From: Rhizobium sp. BT04
Lineage (GTDB): Bacteria; Pseudomonadota; Alphaproteobacteria; Rhizobiales; Rhizobiaceae
DNA length: 64,000 nt
Direction of reading: 5' to 3'
Assembly: GCF_030053135.1 (NCBI RefSeq)
Contig: NZ_CP125650.1
Location: 186,001-250,000 of the forward strand
Shown here one piece after another: positions 10,126 to 51,546 of this stretch; position 1 is the first letter of the stretch; each line of letters starts with the position of its first letter. Position numbers and translations under genes: made by a program. Under the pieces are notes generated by a model. That model made no database searches, had not been told where the DNA came from, and saw only the letters and a program-made list of their open reading frames with translations.

Positions 10126-10142
10126 GAACGACCGTGCAGAAG

Positions 10143-10412: not shown

Positions 10413-10423
10413 GTCTTTTCTCC

Positions 10424-11287: not shown

Positions 11288-11288
11288 C

Positions 11289-11441
11289 TCAATCGTCCTT
11301 CAAGGGAATATCGGCGGCATCTTTGGCCGTCTGCTTGCTACCTGGGCGAAGGGTGAGCATGACCGCGCCGACGAAGAATGCGGCCATTGCCAGGAGGCCC
11401 CAGCTGTCGGAGAAGTGTCTCATTGCAGTGTAAGTTTCCAT
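11289..11441 (-). CDS. fixQ: FixQ, small cbb3 oxidase subunit
   Basis: This 50-residue protein, METYTAMRHFSDSWGLLAMA and onward, has one membrane span (GLLAMAAFFVGAVMLTL) and a charged C-terminal tail. This is the FixQ/CcoQ pattern. CcoQ stabilises the oxidase complex. It lies 8 bases after fixO and just before fixP. Confidence 0.92.
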   Translation of the reverse strand: METYTAMRHFSDSWGLLAMAAFFVGAVMLTLRPGSKQTAKDAADIPLKDD

Positions 11442-11449
11442 GGATCACC

Positions 11450-12184
11450 TCACCGGTAGCCGGTCGCGTCGTCATAGGTCGAGAAATTAACCAGCGTTCC
11501 GAGCATCTGCAGGTAGGACACCAGCGCGTCCATCTCGGTCAGCCGGGTTGGATCGCCGTCGAGATCGCCGACATTCGCATTTGGGTAGCGCTTGAGTAGA
11601 GCCGCCGTGTCCGCGTTCGGATCGGCCTGGGCTCTCATGTCGGCCTCGGCATTCGCCAGCATGTCGTCGCTGTAAGGCACGCCCACGTCCTCATTGGCCT
11701 TGAGGTCCTCTCCGATACTCCTGACCGTCACCTCCTTCTCTTCGAGGAAGGCGTAGCTCGGCATGATTGATTCCGGCACCACGGCCCGCGGATTTGCGAG
11801 ATGCTGGACGTGCCATTCGTTCGAGTAACGCCCCCCGACGCGGGCCAGATCGGGCCCTGTCCGCTTGGATCCCCATTGGAACGGGTGGTCGTACATCGAT
11901 TCCGCGGCGAGCGAATAATGGCCGTAACGTTCGACCTCATCACGGAACGGCCGGATCATCTGGCTGTGGCAGAGATAGCAGCCTTCACGGATGTAGATGT
12001 TCCGTCCGGCGAGCTCTAGCGGCGTGTAGGGCCGCATGCCTTCCACTTTTTCGATCGTGTTCTGCAGGTAGAACAGCGGTGCGATTTCAACGATGCCGCC
12101 AATGCTGACGACCAGCAGCGAGCCGACCAGAAGAAGCGTCGCGTTCTTCTCGAGGGTCTTATGTTTATCAAGTAACGATGCCAT
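11450..12184 (-). CDS. fixO: FixO, monohaem cytochrome c subunit of cbb3 oxidase
   Basis: FixO (CcoO) is the membrane-anchored monohaem cytochrome c of the cbb3 oxidase. The 244-residue product has an N-terminal anchor ([19 protein letters not shown]), the haem-binding site [15 protein letters not shown] and a likely axial methionine farther on. It starts 8 bases after the fixN stop, within the fixNOQP operon. Confidence 0.96.
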
Positions 12185-27789: not shown

Positions 27790-28373
27790 AGCTCAGGGCC
27801 ATTCCGCTCGATCAAGGTCCCCGATGGCCAATCACTCATTGAGCATCCTATTGGGAATACTACCAAAATTACGTTTTCACAGCGCGTCGGCGGGAGGTTG
27901 AGATAAACATCGGCAAGGGTGGATCGCACGCGTACCCCTTCCAAAACCGTCGCAAGACCATTTCGGCAGAGCCTGAGAACAAGGTTGCGCAACGCCTGCC
28001 GAACACCGCCGAACGCAAACCGAACGCCAAGTTGCTGCAGCACTGGGTAAACAATGCGCATCGAATTAATGCCGTACCCCTCAAGATCTGGACGCACGCC
28101 CCACAATCCAAGCTCGCATACGAGTAGATCGACCTCGCCAACCCGAACGAAACGACGCAACAACCCCATGTGAGCGGCCACACCGTGCGCATCATAGCCT
28201 ATTACGCGAAGCTCGGGCCTAGCTCCTGACCAACTACGAGCACCTTCGAATGGAAGGGCGTTGTAAGCTCCAGTTGGCCCATAGGTCTTCCGAAAGAAAT
28301 CTGCGAGCTCCGTGTGGTCAGAGAGCTCCAACTCGTTTTCCCAGCACACTTTCCACCGCACCTGAGGGCTCAT
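27786..28373 (-). CDS. nodA: NodA, Nod factor N-acyltransferase
   Basis: NodA transfers a fatty acid from acyl carrier protein to the free amine made by NodB, and its specificity helps determine host range. The 195-residue product has the family's [50 protein letters not shown] and the C-terminal [14 protein letters not shown]. The start at 28373 ([14 protein letters not shown]) fits the family; the frame runs on to 28418 without support. It lies 91 bases from its own nod box and about 27 kb from nodBC. Confidence 0.96.
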
Positions 28374-28464
28374 ACCTAAACCTCCACTTAATACTCTGTC
28401 CAGGCGTCGACAGAGCAACTACTTGATACGCACTCGTTGGGGCGCTTCTAATGGCACTGGTATA

Positions 28465-28511
28465 AGCTGGTGAAATCATTTGTTTGGATGGAACTCATCC
28501 GTCCAATGGAT
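28465..28511 (-). promoter_or_regulatory. nod box for nodA
   Basis: Reverse strand begins ATCCATTGGACGGATG and contains ATCCAAACAAATGATTTCAC, a slightly diverged nod box core. It ends 91 bases before the nodA start and points toward it. Confidence 0.85.
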
Positions 28512-29310
28512 GCGTTCCAATCAATCGGCCTGCCATCGGCTGCCGACGCCAGATGAAGCGGCCGGGCTCCAACTTCTTCGTGAACATGCCGCCTTGTCCA
28601 TCATGCTGGATCATCTTGATCAGGCATCCAGGACATTGAACTGAAAAGTTGACCATGACTGAGAGGCTCGCTACTCAGGCAGAAGCAAGCCAAAGACGTT
28701 TTCGGCGATAATCAGGCAAATTGTCGAGATCACATTAGAACCCTCGGCGGAACCGGGCTGGTCTATCCCGGCGTCGAAAGTCGTCGAACGACCCGACCTG
28801 GCGGAGGGGTTTTTTCGGAATGTTCGGTTTGCGACAGTCTGATTCCACACAAAATGGGACGCGGCGATAGGCAGCAGCATTCTCCTGTTGAATCTGAAAG
28901 GGGTTCCCCTCGCAAAACGCCCTGGTTCGCTTTGGCTATCGCAGCCCATGGACCGGCACGCTGGGTATCGGCGAAGATTGCCAGAGGACATACTTGCCTG
29001 GCGATCCCGACCTCGGGAGAAGATGATGGGTACAGGAATGGATTCGCAGATCAGTGCGTTTCCGGTGCAAGCTTTTAGGACCCCGGACACAGCAAACGCC
29101 TCCCAGGACTGGCGAGGCGGCCGCGAGATCGCAATTTTCTCCTAGATAACGGTATGAGGTGATCGTCATACCCTGGTCACCGGATGCCGATCGTCACGCA
29201 CATGGTCTGGTACAGAGCCGGCGGCGCCGATGAGCCCCCGAGGAAATACTTAGTGACTGGCACGGTTGTTGCGTCGTCTCACGAAAGACAGCCGTTAACG
29301 AGAGGTCACG
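28512..29310. other. No recognisable gene between the nodA nod box and the metallopeptidase gene
   Basis: Several overlapping frames of 70-140 codons occur on both strands (for example reverse 28671-29090), but none shows a motif I recognise. Confidence 0.4.
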
Positions 29311-30225
29311 ATGATGGATGTATGCTCGATGGGGATGGTGTTGTGCGGTGGGTACCTTCTTGCTGCATCCGCAGGCAGACTCGGCGGCGCTGAGAATGTC
29401 TTATCTGACTCGCCTTTGTCCGCGGCTGATGTATCGAGTTTCGAGACTTTCATAGTTCGCAGCCCACCGACATCACTCAATCTGGATCCATTTTATGCCA
29501 AATATGCTGACGCAGCGGGCATACCTATTATTTCGTCAAACAAGGTTCCAGACACGGCACTATTGATCTCACGTGACATTGTCCTCTACATGTTGTCAGA
29601 ACGCCGTGATGTCCGCGATGCTTTAATCCAGGCTGGAGCGCGGGTGGGCGTCATGGCAATTGACGAGACGACGACTGATATTCCCGAGCAGCGGGATTGG
29701 AAGAAGCCTCTTCCCGATGATCCACGTCTCACCCCTGACGAGCGGCGGGATTACGCCAACACGATCGGCAAGATGACTGCCCGAGACTACTGGGCACAAA
29801 GGGCGCGCGGCATGGGCGGGCTCTACACGACGGGAGCTGTGGAGAATTTGATGGGCGTGCCGGGCACGCGGTATTACGGCGGGAACATTCTTGTTCACGA
29901 ATTCTCACATAATATTTTCAACGCGCTGCGCACGGTAGATCCTGATCTCGTTGCACGAGTTGAACGTGCCTATTCGCACGCCTACGAGAAAGGCCTCTGG
30001 GCGTGTTCCTATATGGAGAACAACGTCGATGAGTATTGGGCCGAGGGCACGCGATTTTGGTTCAATACGAACTTGGCTTACAGCCGAGGCAATCTCACCA
30101 TTGCCACATCAGAAGATTTCGAGGCTCACGATCCAAGCCTCTATAATATCATGGCCGAAGTCTACCGCCATGACCACCACATTCTGGCGGATGTCTATTA
30201 CCGGCATTCGGCGAAGTCGCAGTAA
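29311..30225 (+). CDS. Predicted secreted or membrane-anchored zinc metallopeptidase-like protein
   Basis: The 304-residue product begins with a hydrophobic stretch (CSMGMVLCGGYLLAASAG) that could be a signal peptide or anchor. The body carries NILVHEFSHNIFNAL, an HExxH zinc-binding and catalytic motif. About 50 residues later comes NNVDEYWAEGTRFWFN, with glutamates that could be the third ligand (ExxA/E type). I do not recognise the exact family and no substrate can be named. It stands alone, with GAGAGG before the ATG, between the nodA region and an IS3 element. A role on host or bacterial surface proteins or glycans is possible but only a guess. Confidence 0.6.
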   Translation: MMDVCSMGMVLCGGYLLAASAGRLGGAENVLSDSPLSAADVSSFETFIVRSPPTSLNLDPFYAKYADAAGIPIISSNKVPDTALLISRDIVLYMLSERRDVRDALIQAGARVGVMAIDETTTDIPEQRDWKKPLPDDPRLTPDERRDYANTIGKMTARDYWAQRARGMGGLYTTGAVENLMGVPGTRYYGGNILVHEFSHNIFNALRTVDPDLVARVERAYSHAYEKGLWACSYMENNVDEYWAEGTRFWFNTNLAYSRGNLTIATSEDFEAHDPSLYNIMAEVYRHDHHILADVYYRHSAKSQ

Positions 30226-30525
30226 TGTCCTTTGGTATTGACTGCCGGCCTCATGCTGCAATCCCGCTGGAGACCCGAACTATCGCTGATCGTCCGTAAT
30301 TTGTCAGAGCCAGCCATAAATTTGAGTTTCCGTTCAATTGAAGCGCCCATGTTGTTCCCACGGGTGCATACCAAGTACTTCGTGGCCGCTGGAATTGGCT
30401 CCTTGTGCAACATCGAGACCAAATGACCTGCCACTGAATTTTCATCCGGCGGCGATTAGAGCCTCGGCGGTCTTGAAACGCTCCCAAACGTTGGACCACC
30501 GGATGCTAGAGTTTTCCGGCTTCAT

Positions 30526-31341
30526 TCAGGGAGGCGGGCTGGTTGCGCCTCCCGAATTCACCAACGAGATCGGCACCTTGTTGCCGATCGCACCATGAGG
30601 TCTTTCCTCATTGTAGTATCTACGCCAATCCTCCATCTTTTCGCGGGCATCCGCAAGGGTCAGGAACCAATGCTGGTTCAGGCATTCTGCACGGAAGCGG
30701 CCATTGAACGCTTCGATGAAAGCATTATCAGTCGGCTTGCCGGGGCGTGAGAAGTCCAACGTCACGCCCTTGGAATAGGCCCACAGGTCCAAGTCGCGCG
30801 ACACGAACTCGGTCCCTTGGTCGACACGGATCGTTTTCGGATAGCCGGCTTTTTGGCACACCCGTTCAAGGGTTTGCACGATGTCTTCGCCTCTATAGCT
30901 ATGACGTGGATCAAGCACCGGCACGTAGCGCGAGAAGGTGTCGACCACCGTCAGCACGCGCAGTTTCTTACCCGTTGCGAGTTGGTCGTGAACGAAGTCC
31001 ATCGCCCAGACGTCGTTGGGTCCGACGGCCATGTGCCGATCCTCGCGAAGCTTGGCTTTTACCCCCCGCTTCGGTGTCTTGTTCCGCAACTGTAGCCCCA
31101 AGTCCCTGTAAATGCGGTAGGTTCGCTTGATGTTGGTGCCCCAACCCTCGCGTTCCAACAGCACATGCACGCGGCGATAGCCGTACCGCACACGGATCTC
31201 GCAGATCTCGCGAATACGACGTTCCAGACCGGCCTGATCAGCACGGCGAGAGGTATAGTGGTGAGTTGATCGATCGAAGTTCAACGCTCCACAAGCACGT
31301 CGGATCGAGATCGCCCAATCGCAGCACATGCCTTTCACCAT
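30526..31341 (-). CDS. IS3-family transposase OrfB (copy 1)
   Basis: The 271-residue catalytic part has an HTH_21-like N-terminus (RYGYRRVHVLLEREGWG) and an rve integrase core. The DDE residues sit in NDVWAMDFVHDQLATGK, TIRVDQGTEFVSRDLDLW and DNAFIEAFNGRFRAECLN. It is normally made as an OrfAB fusion by -1 frameshifting from orfA. Confidence 0.92.
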   Translation of the reverse strand: MVKGMCCDWAISIRRACGALNFDRSTHHYTSRRADQAGLERRIREICEIRVRYGYRRVHVLLEREGWGTNIKRTYRIYRDLGLQLRNKTPKRGVKAKLREDRHMAVGPNDVWAMDFVHDQLATGKKLRVLTVVDTFSRYVPVLDPRHSYRGEDIVQTLERVCQKAGYPKTIRVDQGTEFVSRDLDLWAYSKGVTLDFSRPGKPTDNAFIEAFNGRFRAECLNQHWFLTLADAREKMEDWRRYYNEERPHGAIGNKVPISLVNSGGATSPPP

Positions 31342-31361
31342 CTCCCGCTTCCGAGCAGGCC

Positions 31362-31664
31362 TTAGAGCTTTCGGCGGATGACATCCTGCAACATCTCGCG
31401 GTCCAGCGTCAGATCCGCGACGATCTTCTTCAGGCGCGAATTCTCGTCCTCGAGCTGTTTCAGCCTCTTCATCTCCGGTGGCAGCATGCCCGCGTATTTT
31501 TTCTTCCAGTTGAAATAAGTCGCCTGGCTGATCCCCGCCTTCCTGCAGATTTCAGCAACCGACACGCCTTCATCACCTTGCTTCAGAATGAACGCCTTCT
31601 GAGCGTCCGAAAACTGCGACGCTTTCATCGTCTTCTGGTCCCTTTCCCAGCCAGGAAAATGCAC
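31362..31664 (-). CDS. IS3-family transposase OrfA (copy 1)
   Basis: The 100-residue protein has a helix-turn-helix (VSVAEICRKAGISQATYFNW) and a leucine-zipper-like C-terminus (LKQLEDENSRLKKIVADLTL). It is identical in translation to the orfA at 48377-48679. Confidence 0.9.
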   Translation of the reverse strand: MHFPGWERDQKTMKASQFSDAQKAFILKQGDEGVSVAEICRKAGISQATYFNWKKKYAGMLPPEMKRLKQLEDENSRLKKIVADLTLDREMLQDVIRRKL

Positions 31665-31734
31665 CGGAAAACTCTAACCAAAATTGGTCCAGTTTGAAGG
31701 GTTCAGATCAGCATCAGCCGCAACTTTCTACCAG

Positions 31735-32320
31735 CGCCGTCGCTTATCCGATCCGACGACCATGTCTATTTTGTGGGGGAGAACGGTGTTGCCGGTGGTC
31801 ATGTTGGCGATCGGTGCTTGTACGTTCGCAGGCCTGTCCACGTTTTAAAGCATATATGCCGAAACGCGCGGACTCTCACCGAATGTCTTCTTTCTGACAT
31901 TCACCGTCACGACTGTCACATTGCGATTCTCCGTCGCGGGTATGATCGGTAAGTTGCCGCTTGGGCGCCTAGCACTCACCCTCTTCGTGACGACACTGAT
32001 TGGGATCGGACTTTTGGTTTTGAACCCGGGAAGCGAGCTGCTGTACGTCGTCGCCACCGTTCTCTTTGCGATAGGCTACGGTCTCACTTATTCGACCTTG
32101 AATGCGATGGTGGTGAACCTCGCTGGCGAACGTGGTCTGTCAATCTCAACGGCCTCCCAAGTCTTTACACTCGCTTATTTTCGTGGGTTCGTTCGAATTC
32201 CCGTATCTCGGTGGCACATTAATTGCTGTTTATGGCATCGACGTTGCCATGCTCGTGATGGCGGGTCTGGTCGCTCTCAACATCGCAATCGCCAGTCAGA
32301 CATTGTGGAGGGCGGTGTAG
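31735..32320 (+). pseudogene. C-terminal half of an MFS exporter, truncated by IS3
   Basis: Forward-strand pieces in two or more frames resemble the C-terminal half of a major facilitator transporter: MIGKLPLGRLALTLFVTTLI, VVATVLFAIGYGLTYSTLNA, GERGLSISTASQVFTLAY, then after a frame change EFPYLGGTLIAVYGIDVAML and ALNIAIASQTLWRAV. The N-terminal half is missing where IS3 copy 1 begins. It ends 72 bases before the N-hydroxylase gene and has the same direction, so it was probably the exporter of the product made by that cluster. Confidence 0.75.
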
Positions 32321-32391
32321 GAGACAGACGTCCTTCATAATGATTTCCGTATCGCTGCCCACGTGCCCGCCCAACCAAAGGAAGTGTGTTT

Positions 32392-33678
32392 ATGCAAGTG
32401 CTGGATCTCATCGGTATAGGCATCGGACCCTTTAATCTTAGTCTTGCAGCACTCGCGTGTCCGACGCCGCTGCGCACTGCCTTTTTCGAAAAGGAAAGCG
32501 GCTTCGATTGGCATCCTGGGCTGCTGCTGCCCAACAGTCGCCTGCAGGTATCTCCGCTGAAGGACTGTGTGACACTTGCAGATCCGACCAGTCCGTTTTC
32601 GTTTCTCAACTACCTCGCGGTGCATGGACGGCTGTACAGCTTCGTAAACCGGTGCGACGCGACCACGTCGCGAAGAGAGTTCACACAGTATTTCCAATGG
32701 GTTGCGCATCAGTTGCCACAACTCCGGTTTGGGGAGGAGGTTACCGACGTAACCAGATTAGACGAGGGTTACCGCGTGACGACGACTCGAGATCACTACC
32801 ATGCACGCTCAGTTGCGATTGGCGTCGGTGTCGTTGCAACAATTCCCGAATGCGCCAAACCTTGGCTGGGCGAGAAGGTCTACCATGTGGCGAGCTATCT
32901 GGATCGGCCACAAATCGACATCGGTGAACGCGTATTAGTCGTTGGTGGGGGGCAGAGCGGTGCGGAGGTTGTTGAACACCTATTGGGCAGTCCGGGTATC
33001 GGTAAAATTACATGGGTGACGTCACGCGGGAACCTGTTCACGAGGGATGACAGCTCTTTTATCAACGTGTCATACACGCCGTCTTACAGCCAGCGCTTTC
33101 ATTCGCTGCCACTTAAAAAACGTCGCACTATTGTCGACGACGAAAAACTCACCAGTGACGGCATTTCAGCAGAATTGAGCAACCGCATTTACGAAACTAT
33201 CTATCACCGCAGCGCGACTGGCAATATTGACGATGTCATTCAACTGCTACCCGCAGTCGTCATGAAGGAGTTGTCTCCTCATGCGGACGGTTGGCACGCG
33301 CTGTTGGCTTCGCACGGCACCTGTCAGCGACCGACTGTAGTGGCTGATCGGGTCGTACTCGCCACCGGTTTCGAGCCTCGCCCGCTAGCGTTTATCGATC
33401 GCCTATTGGCTTCCGCTTCTATGGAAGGCGGTCTGCCGGTCGTGAAGGACGATTACTCCGTTCAATTCGAGGACAACGCCCCCGGCCAGGTATATCTGCA
33501 AAACCGATCCCCAGTCCAAAGTGGCTTGCAGAGTGTGAATCTATCGCTCGTCGCCTACCGAAACGGTCGCATCATCAATAGCCTGCTTCGGCGTGAATAC
33601 TATCTGAACGTCCCAGATCGGCCGATCCTTGGGTGCCTAGGTTTACTTCCCGCTCAAGAGACACAAAACGCAAGATAA
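32392..33678 (+). CDS. L-lysine N6- / L-ornithine N5-monooxygenase (N-hydroxylase)
   Basis: This flavin enzyme family uses NADPH and O2 to hydroxylate the side-chain amine of lysine or ornithine. The 428-residue product has the FAD motif GIGIGPFNLSLAAL, the substrate/flavin region SPLKDCVTLADPTSPFSFLN and the NADPH motif VVGGGQSGAEVVEHLL. It also has DDSSFINVSYTPSYSQRFH, ATGFEPRP and the C-terminal SGLQSVNLSLVAYRNGRI. The ATG at 32392 has AAAGGAAG upstream. In siderophore loci the neighbours would be acyltransferases and synthetases. Here they are PhyH, cupin and MetRS-like genes, which points instead to hydrazine formation. Lysine is the likely substrate by analogy; sequence alone cannot settle lysine or ornithine. 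Confidence 0.9.
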   Translation: MQVLDLIGIGIGPFNLSLAALACPTPLRTAFFEKESGFDWHPGLLLPNSRLQVSPLKDCVTLADPTSPFSFLNYLAVHGRLYSFVNRCDATTSRREFTQYFQWVAHQLPQLRFGEEVTDVTRLDEGYRVTTTRDHYHARSVAIGVGVVATIPECAKPWLGEKVYHVASYLDRPQIDIGERVLVVGGGQSGAEVVEHLLGSPGIGKITWVTSRGNLFTRDDSSFINVSYTPSYSQRFHSLPLKKRRTIVDDEKLTSDGISAELSNRIYETIYHRSATGNIDDVIQLLPAVVMKELSPHADGWHALLASHGTCQRPTVVADRVVLATGFEPRPLAFIDRLLASASMEGGLPVVKDDYSVQFEDNAPGQVYLQNRSPVQSGLQSVNLSLVAYRNGRIINSLLRREYYLNVPDRPILGCLGLLPAQETQNAR

Positions 33679-33759
33679 CACTCCAGTGCAGTGCAGCTCG
33701 GGGCGCCTGCTCACGACGCAGCTTTACCAGGCGGCTTTAAATCTAAAAAGGAGTTACAC

Positions 33760-34539
33760 ATGTTAACCAAAGAACAAAAATCAACATGGGATGACGTTGG
33801 ATACATTAGGATTGAGTCATTTCTCGATCTAGAAAGCCGAGATAAACTTTCAGCTCTTGTGGCTGATGTTTCGTGCTGGGAGACAAGTGAAGACAAATGG
33901 CTGATATGGTTCGAAAAAACAACTGTCGGTAGGAGGATCATTTCGAAGGTCGAGAACTTCCTCGAATTTAACGCCCCCGTGCGTGATTTACTGCTGGCTG
34001 ACCACCGTATCGAGTCGATCGTCGAAGAGTTACTGGGGGAAGATGCCCGCATGCTCAAAGAGTTGCTGATCTTTAAGTACTCCGACAGCGGCGGCTATCG
34101 CCCGCATCAGGACATCTACCATATCCCACATAAGCTACCAGACCGGATGGTGCACGCGATTGTTGCAATAGGCATCGACGATTCCGGCCCAGACAACGGA
34201 GGGCTTTTCTTCAGCCCCGGGAACCACAAAAAGGGCGTGTTCCCAATGGACGCCGGCGGCGTAATGTACCCCGAGGTCGCGGACAGGCTGGCTTGGGAGC
34301 CCGTAACGTGGAAGGCCGGTGACATTTTCATCTTTGACGACTATGCCCCACATTACTCAAAGCCCAACAAAAGTGAAAATTCTCGAAGGGTGATTTATCT
34401 CGTGTTCCAGCGTGCCTCAACTGGTGGGCCAACGAGGGCCGAATACAACAAACTGAAACGCGCCTACAACCCTCCCGAGGGCAAGGTCTCCAACATCGAC
34501 GAGCTCAAGCCGCCGAACGGCATTTTCTATCGCGATTGA
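33760..34539 (+). CDS. Phytanoyl-CoA dioxygenase (PhyH)-family Fe(II)/2-oxoglutarate oxygenase
   Basis: The 259-residue product has the PhyH fold. The iron ligands appear as HQDIYH (HxD) and the distal His in DDYAPHYSKPNKSENSRRVI, whose Arg would hold 2-oxoglutarate. The loop GPDNGGLFFSPGNHKKG is typical. Such enzymes often hydroxylate amino acids or small products in biosynthetic clusters. The ATG at 33760 follows AAAAGGAG; the frame stays open to 33691 without support. It lies 81 bases after the N-hydroxylase and 21 bases before the cupin gene. Confidence 0.88.
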   Translation: MLTKEQKSTWDDVGYIRIESFLDLESRDKLSALVADVSCWETSEDKWLIWFEKTTVGRRIISKVENFLEFNAPVRDLLLADHRIESIVEELLGEDARMLKELLIFKYSDSGGYRPHQDIYHIPHKLPDRMVHAIVAIGIDDSGPDNGGLFFSPGNHKKGVFPMDAGGVMYPEVADRLAWEPVTWKAGDIFIFDDYAPHYSKPNKSENSRRVIYLVFQRASTGGPTRAEYNKLKRAYNPPEGKVSNIDELKPPNGIFYRD

Positions 34540-34560
34540 AGGCAGAGGACAGAGGCAAAC

Positions 34561-34890
34561 ATGTATACGAAACAGATCGACCGCTCAATCATGCGCCAGG
34601 AGTATGGCGTTCTGGTGTGCCGGTTACTTGAGCATCTACCGCAGGCAGTCGCAACGGCTTTCGGCACATCGATTGTGGAGGTGGTACCTGGCGATGCGGT
34701 CGATCTTCATTCGCACCCAGAGCACGAACTCTGGGTATTGATCTCGGGCAGCGGCGTGTTTCAATCCGATGGAGAAACCTCCGCAGTCAGTGGGGACACG
34801 ATGGTCTATATAGCGCCGCACCAAAAACACGCGATCAAAAATAGCAGCCCTCAAACCAGCTTAAAGTTCCTTTCGATATGGTGGGATTGA
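34561..34890 (+). CDS. Single-domain cupin, probable partner of the MetRS-like protein
   Basis: This 109-residue protein is one cupin barrel. Motif 1 is DLHSHPEHELWVLISGSG (HxH and Glu metal ligands) and motif 2 includes YIAPHQKHAIKN (His). In the known hydrazine synthetases a small cupin is fused to a MetRS-like domain and makes the N-N bond. Here the cupin ends one base before the MetRS-like start, so the two are probably made together. Ribosome site: AGAGG before the ATG. Confidence 0.87.
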   Translation: MYTKQIDRSIMRQEYGVLVCRLLEHLPQAVATAFGTSIVEVVPGDAVDLHSHPEHELWVLISGSGVFQSDGETSAVSGDTMVYIAPHQKHAIKNSSPQTSLKFLSIWWD

Positions 34891-34891
34891 A

Positions 34892-36481
34892 TTGAGAGCA
34901 AACCAACATACTTTTTTTGCCTGCTCGGCGCCGCCGTGCCCGAACGGCAAGCTGCATCTTGGGCATATAGGTGGCGTGTACCTTCTCGCCGACGTGTTCG
35001 TACGCTACCACCGCATGGTAGGCAACGCGGCCTATCACGTGACAGGTGCGGACGAACATGGCACTTACACGCTGGTGAAAGCCCGAAAGCTTGGCAGGCC
35101 GGTTGATGACGTCGCACACATGCACATTGAAGAAATTCTGCAGTGTCTGCGGTCAGTTGATATTGAACCGGACGTATTTGTAAGGACTTCAAGCGAAGAC
35201 CACAAAGACCGCAGCTTGGCGATCTACGACCAACTAAGAGCGTCCGGCTACGTTGAGCTGCGCGACGGAGAGCAACTGTATTGCGGGACGTGCGAAGAGT
35301 TCGCCGCAGACTCACTCGCGGTCGGAGAGTGTCCAGCTTGTAACGCGCCAACAGATAGTAACCTTTGCGAAGATTGCGGCTCGGCGCTGCAACACAATCT
35401 ACTACGCAACCCGATTCACACGACATGCGGCCAGAGCCTTATCTTGCGCCCGATTCGACAGGTTCATTTTGAGCTTGAAAAATTTGCTCCGGGGCTCGAT
35501 CACGCCATTGAGGCGAGCGGATGGCCGGAATCCATAAAGCGCAAAGAACTTGACTGGCTACGGTCAAAACTGATGGCATTGCCGATGTCGCGGCATTTCG
35601 ACCGTGGTGTGACTTTGAACTCCCCGGTGGAGGTGGCAGGCCAAACTTTAATGACTTGGTTTGAAGGATTGTGGTGCTATGAGACAGGAATCGAACGCCT
35701 CTGCAAGCAAAATGGCGCAGATCTCGATGACACTATGCGCAACGCGAGCACGAGACTCGTATTCTTCATGGGTCAGGATAACCGGTTTTATTACACGATC
35801 GGCGTTACTGCTAGTTTGTTCTCGCGCGGTTATGCGATTCCATACAACCATGCAATTCAGGACTTTTATAAGCTCGAAGGCGCGAAATTTTCTACTAGCC
35901 GTGACCACGCTGTGTGGGCTGACGAGGTGGCAGCAGATATCGACACGAACGTGCTGCGCTACTATTTGGCTAGCATCGCCAAGCCATTTGGCGCAAACGA
36001 CAACGATTTTCTGATCGAGGGGCTGCTTCAGACCGCGGCTAGAATTCGTGCTTTCGAAACGGCTTTGCGCAAGTACGCCGGATGTAACGAGACGCTGACG
36101 GCCGACAAGCTGACAGTCGAGCAGAACCACAATGTTAAACGATATTCCGAAGCGGTGCAGGACTTGCGCGTCTGGGATGCCATGGACGCCATAGACGCCT
36201 TTTTCGACGTTGCGTCTTTTTCAAGGGCAGATACCTCAGTCAGCGCAGCGGAAGTTTCCGTATTTCTAAGCCTTCTTAATCCTGTGACCCCGATGCTTGC
36301 GGCGCGGTATGGTGCTTTCTTTTTCGGAGCCGGATGGCGGCCGGGGCTCGATGGCGGCACTATCCGGCCAAGCACCGGCTTACGCAAACCGGTTGATTTC
36401 CCATTGTTTAGCGACCCGATTCCGGAAGCCTTCATAGAGGCTTATGAAAGACGATTTAGGCAAGTCCGGCCGAATTCTTAG
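34892..36481 (+). CDS. Methionyl-tRNA synthetase-like protein (putative hydrazine synthetase subunit)
   Basis: The 529-residue product is a class I synthetase of MetRS type. The HIGH-type motif is NGKLHLGHIGG and zinc-knuckle cysteines are in YCGTCEEF and GECPACNAP with CEDCG. The MetRS insertion is followed by GQDNRFYYTIG and a diverged KMSKS loop, KFSTSRDHAVW. The C-terminal helical part (about 390-529) is a degenerate anticodon-binding domain. It starts at a TTG one base after the cupin stop, with GGTGGGA upstream, implying coupling. It is unlikely to be the housekeeping MetRS because it sits in an accessory cluster. The neighbours match cupin-MetRS hydrazine synthetases, which activate an amino acid and join it to an N-hydroxylated one. 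A resistance MetRS is the main alternative. Confidence 0.82.
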   Translation: MRANQHTFFACSAPPCPNGKLHLGHIGGVYLLADVFVRYHRMVGNAAYHVTGADEHGTYTLVKARKLGRPVDDVAHMHIEEILQCLRSVDIEPDVFVRTSSEDHKDRSLAIYDQLRASGYVELRDGEQLYCGTCEEFAADSLAVGECPACNAPTDSNLCEDCGSALQHNLLRNPIHTTCGQSLILRPIRQVHFELEKFAPGLDHAIEASGWPESIKRKELDWLRSKLMALPMSRHFDRGVTLNSPVEVAGQTLMTWFEGLWCYETGIERLCKQNGADLDDTMRNASTRLVFFMGQDNRFYYTIGVTASLFSRGYAIPYNHAIQDFYKLEGAKFSTSRDHAVWADEVAADIDTNVLRYYLASIAKPFGANDNDFLIEGLLQTAARIRAFETALRKYAGCNETLTADKLTVEQNHNVKRYSEAVQDLRVWDAMDAIDAFFDVASFSRADTSVSAAEVSVFLSLLNPVTPMLAARYGAFFFGAGWRPGLDGGTIRPSTGLRKPVDFPLFSDPIPEAFIEAYERRFRQVRPNS

Positions 36482-36600
36482 CTTTTAATGACGGCAACCG
36501 CTTTGACGATCCCGAGGCGAGTAACGCGGACGCCGACCGGATGACGGCATCTCGATAGCGGAGAACGCAAGGCGGCAGTCGGGCGACCTACTTCGTTCCG

Positions 36601-36667
36601 AAAGGCCCACGACGGCTTTCTGGCGTGCGACGGCGTCGCGCTTGGCGGCGGGCCTTTCTATTTTTTA
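36601..36667 (+). terminator. Probable terminator after the MetRS-like gene
   Basis: AAAGGCCC at 36601-36608 pairs with GGGCCTTT at 36650-36657, with further pairing possible inside, and is followed by CTATTTTTT. It lies 120 bases after the last gene of the cluster. Confidence 0.6.
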
Positions 36668-36770
36668 AGGAGCTCGGGAAGTGGGGCCGTATCCAGGATC
36701 TGCTCGGCGAGCAGTCTCTTCAGTGTGGCGTTCTCTTCCTCAAGCGCCTTCAGGCGCGTTGATCTTTTCA
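36668..36770 (-). mobile_element. Fragment of an IS3-type OrfA
   Basis: Reverse-strand translation gives RLKALEEENATLKRLLAEQI, the zipper-like end of an IS3-family OrfA different from the other copies here. Only about 100 bases remain. The bases from 36771 to the nod box at 37090 show nothing recognisable. Confidence 0.5.
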
Positions 36771-37089
36771 TCACAAATTACTGGCACGCCACCAATATCT
36801 TGAACATGCTTCCAAACAGAAGGAGCCCGCCAGTCGATAGCCAGCGTACGGCAAAGCCTCTCCGGTATCGCGATATGATGAACCTACTTCCGCCCATCCG
36901 TTCACTAGCATTTCATGTCGCTCGGTGACGCCGCTCCACATCGCCTATTGCTAAGGTGCCATTCGATATTTAAAGTGGATTATCTGCAACTATAACGTCT
37001 ATCGTAACTATGCGGCCTACTTAATTGATCACCAAACTAACCTAAGCCTTTTTGACGAACCTTCATTGGATCTATGCTGGAAGGTTCTG

Positions 37090-37136
37090 TACTGGAAAAA
37101 TCGATTGTTTGGATATAAAATATCCGTTGTTTGGAT
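37090..37136 (-). promoter_or_regulatory. Orphan nod box divergent from nodD
   Basis: Reverse strand carries ATCCAAACAATCGATTTTTC within a nod box-like frame. It lies 10 bases before the nodD start and faces away from it. Downstream of it on the reverse strand only an IS fragment and non-coding sequence occur, so its target operon has been lost. It may still serve NodD autoregulation. Confidence 0.75.
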
Positions 37137-37146
37137 GTGACTAAAG

Positions 37147-38103
37147 ATGCGTTTCAAGGGCCTTGATCTAAACCTGCTCGTTGCATTGGATGCGCTCACG
37201 ACCGAGCGCAACCTAACGGCTGCCGCACGTAGTATCAATCTAAGTCAACCAGCAATGAGTGCCGCCATTGGTAGGCTTCGGGACTATTTCCGCGACGAAT
37301 TGTTTACAATGAATGGTCGAGAACTTCGGCTGACGCCCCGTGCCGAAGGACTTGCCTCGGCAGTGCGTGAAACTCTCTTGCAGGTACAATGCTCAATCAT
37401 CTCTTGGGAGCCGTTTAACCCGTCGAAGTCTGACAGATGCTTTAGAATAGTTCTGTCCGATTTCATGATGCTGATATACTTCAATAAAATCATTGAGCGA
37501 GTTGCTCGAGAAGCGCCCGCAGTCAGCTTTGAGTTGCTGCCTTTGGATAGTGATCCGTACGAGATGCTTAGCCGCGGTGACGTCGACTTCCTCATCGTGC
37601 CTGAATTTTTTCTCTCGGGCGCACACCCGAGTGCAAAACTGTTCACAGAGAAGTTTGTATGTGTAGCCTGTTCGACAAATGTGGACCTACCTTCAGCGCT
37701 GACGATCGAGCAATATGTCTCCACGGGACACGTCGCTGCCGCGTTTGGGCGCTTTTTGAAGCCATCGGTCGAGGGCTGGTTCTTGCTCGAGAATGGTATT
37801 CAGAGGCGGGTGGAGGTCGTCGTGCAAGGGTTTAGCTTAATACCACCAGTCCTGCGTGGCACGAACCGCATAGCTAACCTACCGCTTCGCTTAGTCGAGC
37901 ATTACGAAAGTACTTTCCCTTTGCGGATCATCAACCTTCCGTTACCGCTCCCCGTCTTCACAGAAGCTGTTCAATGGCCAGCGCTCCATAATGCCGATCC
38001 AGGGAGCATCTGGTTCAGGGAGATATTGGTTGAGGAAGCTTCCCGTATGATGTCCTCCAACGCACCTAAAATACATGGGTTGCTACAACAATCCGGTTCC
38101 TGA
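37147..38103 (+). CDS. nodD: NodD, LysR-type flavonoid-responsive regulator (copy 1)
   Basis: NodD proteins bind nod boxes and activate nodulation genes with plant flavonoids. The 318-residue product starts [20 protein letters not shown]. It has the LysR helix-turn-helix [20 protein letters not shown] and the NodD-typical effector domain with [20 protein letters not shown] and [20 protein letters not shown]. Length is normal. A divergent nod box lies directly upstream. It differs clearly from the second nodD at 38512-39420. Confidence 0.93.
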
Positions 38104-38511
38104 CCAAGGTTCCTGCTTGAGTAAGATCCGCCCGAGCCCGAATAAGTTCAACAGCCACCAAAGAGGCTTTTCAAAGGTATCCATCCGGGGAAGGCCGCTG
38201 ACCTTGCCCCCAAGTTTTATCCAGTTTTGAGTTCGCTCCGACGGTTTTGGGTTGCTGTATTTGCGGCGGTAGCGGCGGGTTGCGGTGCGGAGCAATTGTG
38301 GTCCCCCAGCACCCTTCGATTTGCCGCCGAAGGTGCTAGACAGCACGTCGCGCAATCGTCCGAAGGGCGGCCGATCGGCGACGGGCGTAGCGCTCAGCTT
38401 CGTCGATAAAATGGCCTGCGGGTCACTCACAGGTGGTGCCGTCTTCAGCTAATCGGCCGCGTCGCGGGTCGTCGCTCCCAATGCAGCCCAGCTTCCTAGG
38501 TTTCAGGATGG
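38104..38511. other. No recognisable gene between the two nodD genes
   Basis: About 400 bases between convergent nodD genes. A 115-codon reverse frame (38083-38430) is basic and low in hydrophobic residues; it does not resemble a known family and may be an eroded insertion element. Confidence 0.35.
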
Positions 38512-39420
38512 TCACGGCAATCGCGCTGCCTCCTGAACCATTATATCTCGCATCCAGATATTTGCCGGATCTTTGTCGTGAAGTACCGGCCATTGGACTG
38601 CCTCGGTGAATGTCGGCAGCGCTATCGGGGGCGCAGTCATCCGCAATGGTATCGTGTCCTCAAAAAGCCCAACTAGTCGTAACGGAACGGTTGCGATGCG
38701 ATCGGTGCCCATTAGGGCGGCGGGGATCATGCTAAAGCTTGAAACAACGACTTCGACCCGCCTCTTGAGGCCATGCTCCTGCAAGAAGCAATCTTCTATG
38801 GTAGGCTGCTGCGTCCGACCGAACCTAACTACCGCGTGCCCCATTGAAGAATACTCCTCGGCAGTAAGGGCTTCCTCAAGTTGTTTGTTATTACTGCAGC
38901 CGACGCAAGTCAGTCGTTCCTGAAATAGATCTATCTTAGGGTGCGCGCTCGACATGAATAGCGGTGGGCTAATAAGGAAGTCTACGTCGCCGCGTCGCAA
39001 AAGCTCGTCTGGATTGTCAGTAAGAGGCAGCAAGTCAAAACTAATGCCGGGTGCTTCCCGCGCAAGACGCTCCAGTATCTTCTGAAAAAGAACAACTGTA
39101 ACGAAATCGCATAAGCTTACTCGGAAATGACGATCTGATTGATCAGGAGTAAATTTATCCCAGGGTATGATATTGAGCCGAATATGCTGTAAAGCCTCAC
39201 GAATCGCAGGCGCGAGGTCTTCCGCACGCGGAGTTGGAACGAACTCACGACCACGCATCGTAAATAGTTCATCGCGGAAATAGGAGCGGAGCCGGCGGAC
39301 AGCTGCACTCATTGCGGGCTGGCTCAGATTAATGCTACGTGCCGCCGCAGTAAGGTTGCGCTCAATCATTAGTGCATCGAGCGCGACAAGGAGATTTAGA
39401 TCGAGGCCCTTAAATCGCAT
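38512..39420 (-). CDS. nodD: NodD, LysR-type flavonoid-responsive regulator (copy 2)
   Basis: The 302-residue product shares the NodD start [20 protein letters not shown] and the helix-turn-helix [20 protein letters not shown]. It then has [20 protein letters not shown] and [20 protein letters not shown]. It is convergent with copy 1. No nod box was seen upstream. Paralogous NodDs in one rhizobium usually differ in the inducers they accept. Confidence 0.93.
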
Positions 39421-39571
39421 ATCTTTTAACTATCCAATAGTGCAGCCCATTCCACAATGGCTGTTCCTACGGCGATGGCTGAATTCGCCTTGACGCTCCT
39501 CAATCGATTTGAGGGCGCGGCCACAGAGACTTAATCTCTGTGATCGGAAAGCAACCTGAGGCCAGTCCAGA

Positions 39572-40597
39572 TTAAGCCATAACTCCAGAGTGAACGCTCG
39601 TTGCAGTGTAATAGGAAGCCTCCAATGGCAAATCACCAAACGCCAGCTGGCAAAGAAGATAATTAGCACCTGCTTCCTCGACATGATCGAGAAGATCTTG
39701 CCTAACTGAAGCAGCAGTACCAACTACGCACAACTGACAGTCTACTGCTGCATCAAAATCCGGCGGGAGGTTCTGAGGAGTCTGTATCCCGTTAATCTCG
39801 TACAGAAACCTAAAGCTCCGAAGCCACCGTTGATAAGCCGGGGCCGCGAGCGAAATGGCATGCTTCGTCGTGCTGCCGGCCACCACCATTCGGACCAACC
39901 CAAGGAACGGCGCCCGTTTCCTGCCCCCGGCGGTACGTCTCTCGTGTGCTCGGTAGGCATCAGTGATCTGGCGAACAGCAGAAGCAGGGCCCCCGCAGGC
40001 AAGATTTGTATCGTTCTCAGCCGCCCAGCGCGCAACCTCAGGACGACTGGTTGTAATCCATCTCGGAGGCTGAGGACGTTGGTGTGGCCGCAACATCAAC
40101 GGGACTTTGTCTAGTTCAAAGTGGTCGCCTTTGTAGGAAAGAGCCTGAGCTCCTTCCTTCATCGCTTGGATGACGATCTCGCTGGCTTCGAGATAGCGCG
40201 ATGTCGCCACCTCCTCATCAATACCGAAAAAGCTCCATTCGATTGGTAAGGAGCCGCGCCCCATGCCCAACTCGAGCCTGCCACCGCTCAGATGATCCAG
40301 CATGCAAATTTCTTCAAACGCACGTAACGGATGATAAAGATTCAACAGCATAACCAAAGGACCGAGACGAAGATGCTGCGTGCGCTGAGCTACGCTTGCT
40401 AGAAATAGATTCGGCGAAGGTCCTCTGCCGTGGGGAGTACAGTGGTGCTCTGCGACGTGATATCCATAAAAGCCAAGGCGATCGCAGACCTCTGCCAACT
40501 TCATCCGATCTTCATACTGGCGCCCAATCTCCCTTCCGTCTTCGTCCAAATGGTCGAAGATACCAACCATCAGCTTTGCGGGAAGAGAGTTTGTCAT
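39572..40597 (-). CDS. Luciferase-like flavin monooxygenase, probable nod regulon member
   Basis: The 341-residue product is a bacterial luciferase-type (LLM) flavoprotein: GFYGYHVAEHHCTPHGRGPS, LGPLVMLLNLYHPLRAFEEI, HLSGGRLELGMGRGSLPIEW and PQPPRWITTSRPEVARWAAE. Such enzymes use reduced FMN (or F420) for oxidation of small molecules. Its substrate cannot be told from sequence. TTGGAGA lies before the ATG. A nod box about 525 bases upstream points to it, so flavonoid induction is likely. A function in Nod factor or signal modification is possible but not shown. Confidence 0.85.
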   Translation of the reverse strand: MTNSLPAKLMVGIFDHLDEDGREIGRQYEDRMKLAEVCDRLGFYGYHVAEHHCTPHGRGPSPNLFLASVAQRTQHLRLGPLVMLLNLYHPLRAFEEICMLDHLSGGRLELGMGRGSLPIEWSFFGIDEEVATSRYLEASEIVIQAMKEGAQALSYKGDHFELDKVPLMLRPHQRPQPPRWITTSRPEVARWAAENDTNLACGGPASAVRQITDAYRAHERRTAGGRKRAPFLGLVRMVVAGSTTKHAISLAAPAYQRWLRSFRFLYEINGIQTPQNLPPDFDAAVDCQLCVVGTAASVRQDLLDHVEEAGANYLLCQLAFGDLPLEASYYTATSVHSGVMA

Positions 40598-41121
40598 TTA
40601 AATGTCTCCAAGTTTGGCGGCGAATTTTCGGTGACCAAGACCGGAGGGTGGCCCCGATGTCTTTCGCCAGGAATCATCGAAAAGCTGCTGGTTCTAAAAA
40701 ACGATGCTGACGCCGATGAGCTAATCATAATGCTCACGTTGAAATGACATTGAATCATTCGTATTCATGTATGACTTCGCGGTGGGTAACACCCCATCTC
40801 GCATACCCACAGCTCCGTTCACTTTTGAGAAGCCAAGGATTGGCAAGATCGGATAGTGGTTGTTCAGCTTTTGTGGCGACCCAAATGTGTTAAAGCTGGT
40901 ATTCGGTTTAATGCGACGAGGCTCCTGCAGTAGGCGAAGAAAGGACCCAGAGCTATGTCTCGGCGCTTGATTGGCAGACGAGAGCGCCTTCTGCAGTTCC
41001 ACGTTGGCCATGTTCGTCTCCATTTACCGGCCAGGTCTGTGACCTTGCCCTCGGCTGCTCTCGGTGGAGCAACATCATGGGGTCCCCAATTCATAATCGA
41101 GGTGTTTAATAACATCCCATG
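40598..41121. other. Leader between nod box and monooxygenase gene
   Basis: A reverse frame at 40721-41023 (METNMANVELQKALSSANQA...) might encode a small protein of about 100 residues under the nod box, but I recognise no family. Nothing else is seen. Confidence 0.35.
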
Positions 41122-41168
41122 GCTTCGTAAAATTGATTGTTTGTATGGCATTGATCCACCAGGTGAAT
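41122..41168 (-). promoter_or_regulatory. nod box upstream of the luciferase-like monooxygenase gene
   Basis: Reverse strand begins ATTCACCTGGTGGATC and contains ATACAAACAATCAATTTTAC, close to the nod box core. It points toward 40597. The bases 41169-41420 to its right show no gene. Confidence 0.8.
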
Positions 41169-41420
41169 AACCAGGAATCTTCACCGTCAAAGGGTTGCTG
41201 ATCGAACTAGCATACGGTCGACCCAGGCGAGATCACGGCCCCTTCCGAAGGTGGAAGGATCAGGAGCCAGTGCGGTTTTGGCCGCAGCGCAACAGCGCCG
41301 ATACCAGAAATAGATGTGACGCAGTTGGCTTCCGCGTCTTTCGTGCACGCTGTTATATGTCCTTAACATTCCCCATCTTAACTTCATAGGATCACAGGTT
41401 TTACGATAGGGAAATTGCTC

Positions 41421-42245
41421 TCAACCCTTCAAACTGGACCAATTTTGGTTAGAGTTTTCCGGTGCATTTTCCTGGCTGGGAAAAGGAACGGAACACGATG
41501 AAGGCATCGCAGTTTTCGGACGCTCAGAAGGCGTTCATTTTGAAGCAGGGTGATGAGGGCGTCTCGATCGCGGAGATTTGTCGCAAGGCGGGGATCAGTC
41601 AGACGACTTACTTCAACTGGAAGAAAAAGTACGCCGGCATGTTGCCGCCAGAGATGAAGAGGCGCAAGCAGCTTGAGGACGGGAATTCGCGATTGAAGAA
41701 GATCGTCGCGGATCTGACGTTGGACCGTGAGATGCTGCAGGACGCCATCCGCCGAAAGCTCTAAGGCCTGAGGGGTAGCGGGAGGTGGTGTCATGTGCCG
41801 CGATTGGGCGATCTCGATCCGGCGTGCCTGTGGCGCGTTGAACTTCGATCGGTCGACCGATCACTACATCTCTCGCCGCGCCGAGGCCGGTCTAGACCTG
41901 TAAGCGCGGGTGCGCTACGGCTATCGTCGCGTGCATGTGCTTTTGGAACGCGAGGGTTGGGGCACCAACATCAAGCGAACCTATCGCATTTACAGGGACT
42001 TGGGACTGCAGCTGCGGAATAAGACTCGGAAGCGCCGTGTTAAGGCGAAACTTCGCGAGGATCGGCAAATGGCTGTCGGACCAAATGACGTGTGGGCGAT
42101 GGACTTCGTGCACGACCAGCTCGCAACCGGAAAGAAACTGCGGGTCCTGACGGTGGTCGCCACCTTCTCACGCTATGTTCCCGCGCTTGATCCGCCTCAC
42201 AGCTATCGAGGTGAAGATGTCGTGCAGACGTTGGGACGGGTGTGA
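41421..42245 (+). mobile_element. Divergent, truncated IS3-family element (copy 4)
   Basis: The left end (CAACCCTTCAAACTGGACC) and an intact OrfA (41462-41764; 100 residues with VSIAEICRKAGISQTTYFNW) match the other IS3 copies but with many changes. OrfB begins at about 41795 with a stop in the early part (near 41902), continues from RYGYRRVHVLLEREGWG and breaks off after HSYRGEDVVQTLGRV at 42245. It is inactive and older than the other copies. A perfect 14-bp palindrome, ATAGTGCGCACTAT, follows at 42257-42270. Confidence 0.8.
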
Positions 42246-50337: not shown

Positions 50338-51519
50338 ATGGCTCCTAGTGACTACAGACTAGCAGTTCCCCTTTCTGCTGAAACGGCCAGCTGCACCGCA
50401 GAAAGCATACTGGCGCGACGATCAGGACGATCCTTGAGCATTTATAGGGCGATCTTGCTCTTCGTCGCCGCGGCATTTGGCTCACTGCCACTCGTTACCA
50501 TCCCGGTCTCCATGCAGAGTGTCGGTACTATTCGCCCGATCGTGGAGAAGACGCCCCTGATAGCGCCCGTCTCCGGACGCATCTCCCGTGTCCTTGCCTT
50601 TGAGAACGATGTCGTTGCTAAGGGGAAGGAAATAATCGCCTTTGACGATCATGTAATCGAGGAAAAGCTCAGCGGGGTTTTAGCCGACATTCATGCCAAG
50701 AGCGATCTTGCCCATGACTTCCAAACGCTGATTTCTTCCGGCGCAAGGCTCAGCGTCTCGCCCCCCCTCCAAACCGAATCCGCGACGGCTGAAAGGGTGC
50801 ATTTTCTCAACTTGCTGCGCGAGAACCAAAATGCGCGCAGTAACGCCGCGGCGGAACTCGACCGCGCAAAGCGACTTGTCTCGGCTGCTGCGGCGCCCGC
50901 GAAGACCGTTGACGAGAAGGCTTTCGCTCTCCAAAATATCGAGGTCCAAGGCGAGATCCTCGTGCGACGCAAAACCGCTGATTGGAACCAGAAGCTCCTT
51001 GATGCTAACCTGCGCTTAAAGGAACTCACGGCCACCTTGCATCAGCTCGAGCACGAACGGGACCTGCACCGCATCCGCGCCCCAGTATCGGGTGCTCTCG
51101 AGCAGTTCTCCGGCCTCGCGCACGGAAGCTACGTGCAGAGCGGGCAAACCGTTGGTTGGATCTCGCCGAACGACGATCTGGTGGCGGAAATCTACGTCTC
51201 CCCCAACGACATTGGCTTTGTGCAGCCTGGTCAGCCGGTGCGGCTCCAAGTGGATGCCTTTAACTACAACCAATGGGGTGTCATCAAAGCAAGGGTGGTC
51301 GAGGTGGCGCAGGACTTCACTCTGCATGACGGGAACCCGGTCTTCAAGGTCCAGTGCGCGCTCTCTCGCAGCGAACTCGCGCTGAAAAGCGGGGCCATCG
51401 GCCACCTGAAGAAAGGCATGACCGTGCGGGCTCGCTTTCTGTTGGCCAATCGCACTCTCCTGCAACTGCTCTACGACGAGGCAGACGATTGGCTCAACCC
51501 GATGCTGGCGGGGCGCTAA
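50338..51519 (+). CDS. HlyD-family membrane fusion protein of the peptide exporter
   Basis: The 393-residue product has one N-terminal membrane span (YRAILLFVAAAFGSLPLVTI). A lipoyl/barrel-sandwich segment (EKTPLIAPVSGRISRVLAFE) and a long coiled-coil hairpin (about residues 110-230) follow, then RIRAPVSGALEQFSGLAHGS, the second half of the sandwich. It bridges the inner-membrane ABC protein to the outer membrane in type I export. It lies between the peptide gene and the ABC gene. A TolC-type outer membrane protein is not encoded here. Confidence 0.9.
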   Translation: MAPSDYRLAVPLSAETASCTAESILARRSGRSLSIYRAILLFVAAAFGSLPLVTIPVSMQSVGTIRPIVEKTPLIAPVSGRISRVLAFENDVVAKGKEIIAFDDHVIEEKLSGVLADIHAKSDLAHDFQTLISSGARLSVSPPLQTESATAERVHFLNLLRENQNARSNAAAELDRAKRLVSAAAAPAKTVDEKAFALQNIEVQGEILVRRKTADWNQKLLDANLRLKELTATLHQLEHERDLHRIRAPVSGALEQFSGLAHGSYVQSGQTVGWISPNDDLVAEIYVSPNDIGFVQPGQPVRLQVDAFNYNQWGVIKARVVEVAQDFTLHDGNPVFKVQCALSRSELALKSGAIGHLKKGMTVRARFLLANRTLLQLLYDEADDWLNPMLAGR

Positions 51520-51546
51520 TATTGTCCCAACAGCCAGCGAGCCTCC

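Follow-up and report, generated by a model that had tools for sequence, protein, structure and literature searches.

The window analyzed here, a 64,000-nucleotide stretch of Rhizobium sp. BT04 (contig NZ_CP125650.1, positions 186,001 to 250,000), is part of a 7.0-Mb genome and carries, at positions 32392 to 36481, four forward genes that probably form the core of an operon for the synthesis of a hydrazine, that is, of a compound with an N-N bond (we put the probability of this reading at roughly 0.8). The tight forward order described in the initial annotation was found as stated, in that all four genes are present and intact and are separated by 81, 21, and 1 bases.

32392..33678, + strand: N-hydroxylating flavoprotein monooxygenase (NMO), 428 aa; PF13434, 339.7 bits
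33760..34539, + strand: PhyH-family Fe(II)/2-oxoglutarate oxygenase, 259 aa; PF05721, 112.5 bits
34561..34890, + strand: stand-alone cupin, 109 aa, proposed N-N bond-forming half of the synthetase; PF07883, 45.5 bits
34892..36481, + strand: ligase resembling methionyl-tRNA synthetase (MetRS), 529 aa, TTG start, proposed amino-acid adenylation/esterification half; PF09334, 240.5 bits

The PhyH open reading frame (ORF) could start at a GTG at 33691; its relatives begin at the ATG at 33760. Positions 31900 to 36600 match 46 plasmid records, 35 of them at at least 99% identity, from symbiotic plasmids of bean-nodulating Rhizobium. The nif, nodA, and nodD2 genes are annotated around the orthologous loci, which agrees with the symbiotic-plasmid setting first proposed.

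The cupin and the MetRS-like protein as a candidate hydrazine synthetase

As in the PyrN, Spb40, Tri28, and RHS1 systems, the locus combines an NMO and a MetRS-like protein with a zinc cupin. The split form of the synthetase is known from Rhodococcus RHA1 (PMC8664883) and is listed for Cellulomonas in a part of PMC11705231. Residues H50, H52, E56, and H90 of the cupin match the same four positions of PyrN; its zinc-ligand and indispensable-Glu positions also align with columns D63, H65, E69, and H103 of RHS1, and it ends in SIWW as RHS1 does. The MetRS-like protein has a HIGH-type motif (H22-L-G-H25) and a KMSKS-type motif (K332-F-S-T-S), the positions of which are invariant or almost so in 25 members of its clade, and H22, G24, H25, S334, and T335 are invariant among 34 mixed sequences. 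The structure nearest to it by VIA-align is PyrN. The chains of PDB entry 9l8v (and of 9vq4, with the same aligned stretch) are deposited as methionine-tRNA ligase, while the title of the 9l8v entry gives a PyrN domain, so that molecule names conceal solved synthetases.

In the tree, the MetRS-like clade forms its own branch, with a value of 99 in the Shimodaira-Hasegawa-like approximate likelihood ratio test (SH-aLRT), and 34 canonical MetRS sequences form a separate one (SH-aLRT of 100). It attaches at the node that separates canonical MetRS from the group of RHA1, Cellulomonas, and fused enzymes; its sisterhood to that group hangs on the root. A MetRS-like protein of Leptospira borgpetersenii (P0027; 36% identity over 67%) is a long-branched neighbor of the window clade.

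Its membership in PF09334 and its matches to the NCBIfam methionine--tRNA ligase profiles would fit a tRNA-charging MetRS, either a spare copy or a resistance enzyme, lying beside unrelated oxygenases. We rejected this candidate, which we consider highly improbable, because the best profile score is 253 bits against a curated cutoff of 587, because the protein falls outside canonical MetRS on a branch of its own, and because its nearest structure is PyrN; in addition, the gene stands beside PhyH and cupin genes, and mostly an NMO gene too, in two classes of Proteobacteria. The genome has other MetRS-like matches at two places on contig C6. The initial annotation, which had assigned the locus to hydrazine synthesis, had named in advance a grouping with tRNA-charging MetRSs as the observation that would overturn the assignment; that comparison was run, and neither the tree nor the structures refuted it.

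Several observations nevertheless weigh against the assignment. Midpoint rooting groups the window clade with canonical MetRS, and sisterhood with the known synthetases requires a root inside canonical MetRS, with RHA1 on a very long branch. Foldseek, ordered by E value, ranks six MetRSs ahead of PyrN, and the identity of the MetRS-like protein to proven or listed synthetases is about 24 to 29% (PyrN, 24%; RHA1, 27%; Cellulomonas P0068, 29%). For the cupin, 5UQP (which is RHS1) comes only seventh of 20 sequence matches, with an E value of 8.9e-8, behind other cupins. In the literature, we found no biochemistry for any cupin/MetRS-like pair of the window type.

A further alternative is that the MetRS-like protein makes an ester or amide as a peptide or hydroxamate ligase and that the cupin is otherwise employed, so that no N-N bond arises. 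Peptide ligation giving a modified peptide, possibly a siderophore, was predicted for such operons in 2010 (in a part of PMC2922099), and PyrN without a working cupin yields an N-hydroxy amide (PMC8664883). The window cupin, for its part, keeps all four metal and catalytic positions, the indispensable Glu included, and in some relatives, described below, a fused synthetase of the kind listed for Mesorhizobium R7A replaces the split pair within the same operon, which makes a ligase of this sort improbable. We consider it very likely that the window pair is instead a hydrazine synthetase that carries out N-N chemistry.

The N-hydroxylase, the PhyH oxygenase, and a proposed pathway

The NMO is an N-hydroxylase of the SidA/IucD/PvdA kind. 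Its K57 and N225 occupy the positions of the Lys and Asn that bind substrate in the amino-acid NMOs MbtG and PvdA (residues that we take to be K69 and N254 in PvdA), and other residues stand at these positions in 6xbb, 5o8p, and 7us3. In SidA, according to a part of PMC7347517, Lys107 touches the substrate carboxylate and altering Asn293 weakens binding. The motif SDGIS is present in 24 of 25 aligned hydrazine-linked NMOs, the remaining one (L030; L numbers label single loci) having SDGVS, and it recurs in the hydrazine-pathway NMO of RHA1, which is 39% identical to the window NMO and whose pathway used N6-hydroxylysine (PMC8664883). Because K57 and N225 are kept and SDGIS is shared with the RHA1 enzyme, lysine is the favored substrate of the window NMO and, on these alignments, a fairly probable one.

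The best-scoring solved relatives of the NMO speak against lysine, since they include 7us3, which is deposited as a putrescine hydroxylase, as well as 6xbb and 5o8p, which are presumably histamine and cadaverine enzymes. The nearest NCBIfam profile is likewise that of histamine N-monooxygenase, although the score of 254.2 bits lies far below the cutoff of 700, and diaminobutyrate- and putrescine-type substrates are named for some family members in a part of PMC11705231. The substrate could thus be a diamine or another amino acid (ornithine or diaminobutyrate), in which case the N-N product would not be built from lysine. We consider this unlikely in view of the agreement with MbtG and PvdA at K57 and N225, the role of the SidA residues, and the SDGIS motif in common with the RHA1 pathway; a siderophore-type amine NMO was weighed and, as K57 and N225 differ from the amine enzymes, was retained solely as a rival with respect to substrate.

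In the PhyH protein, H116-x-D118, H198, and R209 are invariant across 21 aligned sequences. Its predicted model (pLDDT, a per-residue confidence score, of 85.8) has its best fold matches in proline hydroxylase H11, the ectoine hydroxylase EctD, AviO1, and GriE. The subfamily is narrow, as a large protein search gave 29 proteins, 28 at at least 56% identity and one at 31%, which supports PhyH as a dedicated partner in the operon. It is also rare: of 394 genomes sampled across the family, 5 have it, and of 397 sampled across the order, 3, the source genome counted. It occurs in two of 201 sampled relatives of genome G064, too few for a prevalence, as is the single genome that represents the genus of G064.

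The substrates, reaction, and end product that we infer are as follows. Hydroxylation by the NMO would fall on the nitrogen in the side chain of an amino acid, for which lysine is the likeliest candidate. A second amino acid would be adenylated with ATP by the MetRS-like protein, independently of tRNA, and handed on to the N-OH oxygen, giving an unstable ester that the zinc cupin would rearrange to form a hydrazino diamino acid with an N-N bond. The PhyH oxygenase would hydroxylate a C-H position either in one of the building blocks or in the product itself. In fuller operons, a major facilitator superfamily (MFS) protein would export the product and a pyridoxal phosphate (PLP)-dependent aminotransferase would finish it; the bean plasmids are without a working copy of either.

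Compared with the PyrN, Spb40, Tri28, and RHS1 systems, the window-type clade is deep branching, and a dedicated PhyH gene is linked to it; full window-type operons add the MFS and aminotransferase genes, and no flavin oxidase or dehydrogenase was seen in the operon. The absence of the usual flavin oxidase had been pointed out at the outset, and among the ORFs of at least 90 aa at 31000 to 38500, six of which were searched, no Spb39-type gene was seen by eye, the rest of the genome being unscanned for it. The split, deep-branching synthetases and their dedicated PhyH enzymes would be new biocatalysts and would probably yield a new class of hydrazine products.

Related operons and apparent exchange of their parts

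The 38 loci of the MetRS-like clade collected from GTDB species genomes come from Rhizobium (11), Mesorhizobium (3), Bradyrhizobium (16), Paraburkholderia (4), Ralstonia/Burkholderiaceae (2), and Pseudomonas fuscovaginae (2). The order NMO-PhyH-cupin-MetRS is kept in strains CB3090 and CCGE531 and in Mesorhizobium amorphae. Outside Rhizobium, 20 of 27 loci read NMO-MFS-PhyH-cupin-MetRS-aminotransferase (with a fragmented or incomplete aminotransferase gene in L036 and L043), so that the N-hydroxylase gene recurs in all 20 full six-gene operons. Two M. amorphae-like loci read MocR-MFS-NMO-PhyH-cupin-MetRS-aminotransferase, and the remainder lie at contig ends (L027 and L044), are degenerate (L032 and L049), or are hybrid (L021). 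CB3090 and CCGE531 have MocR-MFS-NMO-PhyH-cupin-MetRS and lack the aminotransferase, a PF00155 protein similar to alpha-aminoadipate aminotransferases and MppQ.

The Lotus-type Mesorhizobium loci L009 and L060 have an operon of NMO, PhyH, and a fused cupin/MetRS, with no MFS or aminotransferase gene seen. Remnants of the tail of a window-type NMO lie between their NMO and PhyH genes, in L009 at 8226 to 8452 in two frames and in L060 (reverse complement) at 7217 to 7420 with a stop; a third remnant, 70% identical, lies at 2791 to 2901 in L021 (Mesorhizobium albiziae), which has a new NMO yet retains a window-type cupin and MetRS. Given these remnants and the hybrid L021, the Lotus-type operons seem to be derived from an ancestor of the window type that exchanged first its NMO and then its synthetase. 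The incoming fused synthetase is about 50% identical to fused Streptomyces enzymes, and its taking the place of the split pair is the strongest indirect evidence that the pair in the window has the same job. The mosaic operons of L021, L009, and L060 suggest a route by which parts of pathways with the same function were exchanged.

In M. japonicum R7A, the corresponding operon is that of the NMO gene msi280, which shares with the window the NMO-PhyH-synthetase core, the setting in a symbiosis region, and, through the NMO tail remnants, its ancestry (the PhyH proteins of msi280-type relatives are 74% identical to that of the window in G064/L060 and 78% in G147/L061), but differs in its fused cupin-MetRS, its foreign NMO, and its NifA promoter. 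The R7A synthetase Q8KGM6 appears in a list in a 2024 review (a part of PMC11705231), so that hydrazine synthetases of rhizobia had been noted before, where the initial annotation knew of no such product from them; a paper cited by that review found homologues using glycine, serine, alanine, and tyrosine and does not name Q8KGM6 in its main text. We tentatively assign Q8KGM6 to the msi280 operon because the -24/-12 sequence of L009 equals the printed msi280 promoter, an assignment that would make it the fused synthetase of that operon.

Nor is the family restricted to the actinomycetes, to which the initial annotation had tied it, since operons of paralogous MetRS, cupin, and lysine monooxygenase were predicted across bacteria in 2010 (in a part of PMC2922099). 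That prediction has the same three-part core, with phytanoyl-hydroxylase-family dioxygenases among the accessories; it differs in that the part in question mentions neither N-N chemistry nor a connection with nitrogen fixation, and the word "Rhizobium" is absent from its text. Another rhizobial plasmid, pSmeSM11b of Sinorhizobium meliloti SM11 (L010), likewise carries an NMO with SDGIS and a fused cupin-MetRS but differs in having genes for a flavin adenine dinucleotide (FAD) oxidoreductase and nonribosomal peptide synthetases (NRPS) and in having no PhyH annotated within 21 kb. Its NMO, FAD oxidoreductase, and fused cupin-MetRS genes lie at 7267 to 11953 amid the NRPS genes, and similar MetRS-like genes occur on plasmids of other S. 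meliloti and of S. medicae.

Promoter motifs and the state of the bean-plasmid copy

In 8 of 15 Bradyrhizobium loci (L034, L036, L037, L039, L043, L044, L045, and L048), an exact sigma-54 site lies 173 to 380 bp before the NMO gene, and in 5 of these 8 a TGT-N10-ACA motif, the NifA-type upstream activator sequence (UAS), lies exactly 100 bp further upstream. The upstream stretches hold 8 exact sites in 7,500 bases and the rest of the same loci 1 in 463,780 scanned bases; the eight sites are related to one another and therefore do not represent eight independent events. In L009 and L021, the site deviates at one base and is accompanied by a UAS, and the -24/-12 site of L009 is identical to the msi280 promoter printed for R7A. 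According to a part of PMC3538637, an msi280::lacZ fusion gave 371.6 Miller units in R7A bacteroids, 268.9 without nifA1, and 7.3 without nifA2, which makes its expression there dependent on NifA2. Upstream of the NMO gene in a Bradyrhizobium subgroup without the sigma-54 site (L029, L031, L032, and L035), we saw by eye, from one translation start each, biotin-synthase-like, GntR, and anthranilate/aminodeoxychorismate-synthase-like genes.

In the window, the following features lie upstream of the operon.

32212..32227, + strand: candidate sigma-54 (-24/-12) site TGGCACATTAATTGCT, located 164 bp upstream of the NMO start
31744..32311, + strand: dead MFS exporter gene, residues about 229 to 417 only, in two frames; 82% and 80% identity by tblastn with the CB3090 MFS protein
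30526..31664, - strand: insertion-sequence transposase ORFs (30526 to 31341 and 31362 to 31664) adjoining the truncated MFS gene; by eye, similar to an IS3-type orfA/orfB pair

The site at 32212 is the single exact match to TGGCACRNNNNTTGCW in the window, where shuffles average 0.01; the 7.0-Mb genome has 12 exact matches and the reversed-pattern control 2. At this position, CB3090 carries CGGCATATTAATTGCA. Among 13 sister bean loci, 8 have this site.

Several rhizobial lineages appear to have brought the operon under NifA and sigma-54, and its product would then be made in nitrogen-fixing bacteroids. Against such control, an exact sigma-54 site is absent from 7 of the 15 Bradyrhizobium loci and from each of 11 further loci inspected, the window site lies within dead MFS coding sequence, and the site is deleted in 5 of 13 sister bean loci (L007, L013, L014, L018, and L020). 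No NifA site was found at the usual distance (about 100 bp) upstream of the window site, the nearest TGT-N10-ACA upstream being at 31884, a motif that CB3090 and CCGE531 also have in their intact MFS genes. The same part of PMC3538637 reports that the msi280 mutant is Fix+ and that many genes without NifA promoters likewise dropped in the nifA2 mutant, so that promoter evidence is needed to call the control of msi280 direct. A nif-controlled N-N product in some rhizobia is a tentative proposal. A nod box is not a candidate driver, as the sole + strand match (2289 to 2335) sits 30 kb from the NMO gene; the other matches (1631 to 1677, 28478 to 28511, 37090 to 37136, and 41122 to 41168) are all on the - strand.

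The most far-reaching interpretation, to which we give slightly less than even odds, is that in several lineages of rhizobia the nitrogen-fixing bacteroids produce a hydrazino amino acid carrying a hydroxyl group, a specialized metabolite with an N-N bond, from an operon induced together with nitrogenase; that symbiosis plasmids and islands passed the pathway among themselves, with N-hydroxylase and N-N enzymes swapped for distant equivalents around a constant PhyH; and that the bean copy was reduced and acquired a sigma-54 promoter of its own within the defunct exporter gene. If so, the product could act as a signal in the nodule, be directed against competing bacteria, or feed its producers as a rhizopine-like private nutrient, all this in bacteroids known for nitrogen fixation and not for natural products with N-N bonds. 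Should the link prove right, msi280, a strongly bacteroid-expressed nif-regulon operon to which the passages of PMC3538637 assign no role, gains a concrete chemical prediction. The link between hydrazine synthetase operons and nitrogen fixation is apparently new: among the papers listed from the openly licensed literature, none by title or start of abstract joins rhizobia or bacteroids and hydrazine synthetases, one search giving the R7A regulon paper alone, and passages of PMC5011921, PMC7643969, PMC3973600, and PMC4072884 contain nothing on this operon.

Whether BT04 itself makes the product, as first suggested, must be weighed against a relic, an ancestral hydrazine operon decaying on bean symbiotic plasmids whose four genes are still intact by chance and unused. 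The window exporter is truncated and frameshifted; neither an aminotransferase (best of 15 matches, 30% identity) nor a MocR-type regulator (best of 11 matches, 30% identity) of the operon was found elsewhere in the genome. Moreover, 7 of 13 sister bean loci are lesioned in at least four ways: a stop (L005) or an inversion (L017) in the NMO gene; deletion of NMO, PhyH, and half of the cupin gene (L007, which is Rhizobium etli CFN 42, L018, and L020); and a MetRS frameshift (L041 and L042). A relic is harder to reconcile with the 6 sister loci in which all four genes are intact, with the perfect sigma-54 site, and with the Lotus-type operons, which also do without MFS and aminotransferase genes although msi280 is expressed in R7A bacteroids (part of PMC3538637). 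The ratio of nonsynonymous to synonymous substitution rates (dN/dS) of the four window genes against CB3090 and CCGE531 is 0.09 to 0.22; they are therefore selected coding sequence, and it follows from this ratio and the lesioned loci that the operon was selected in its history, yet bean strains exist without it. We judge the chances of a relic to be about even, and a working pathway in this very strain to be rather doubtful.

Downstream of the window operon lies nodD2, with nolP in between at one orthologous locus, where the end of nolP abuts the MetRS-like gene; the nod-box match at 37090 to 37136 (- strand) points left, upstream of the position of nolP in such a locus. Rfam gave no matches within 28000 to 42000, and exact words of at least 14 bases revealed no terminal repeats of the insertion element. 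At 50338 to 53691, the window has genes for HlyD-type and peptidase-domain ATP-binding cassette (ABC) exporter proteins, relatives of which (73% and 83%) directly follow the aminotransferase gene in Mesorhizobium YC-39 (L022); HlyD-type and peptidase-domain ABC exporter annotations also follow it in M. amorphae (L008).

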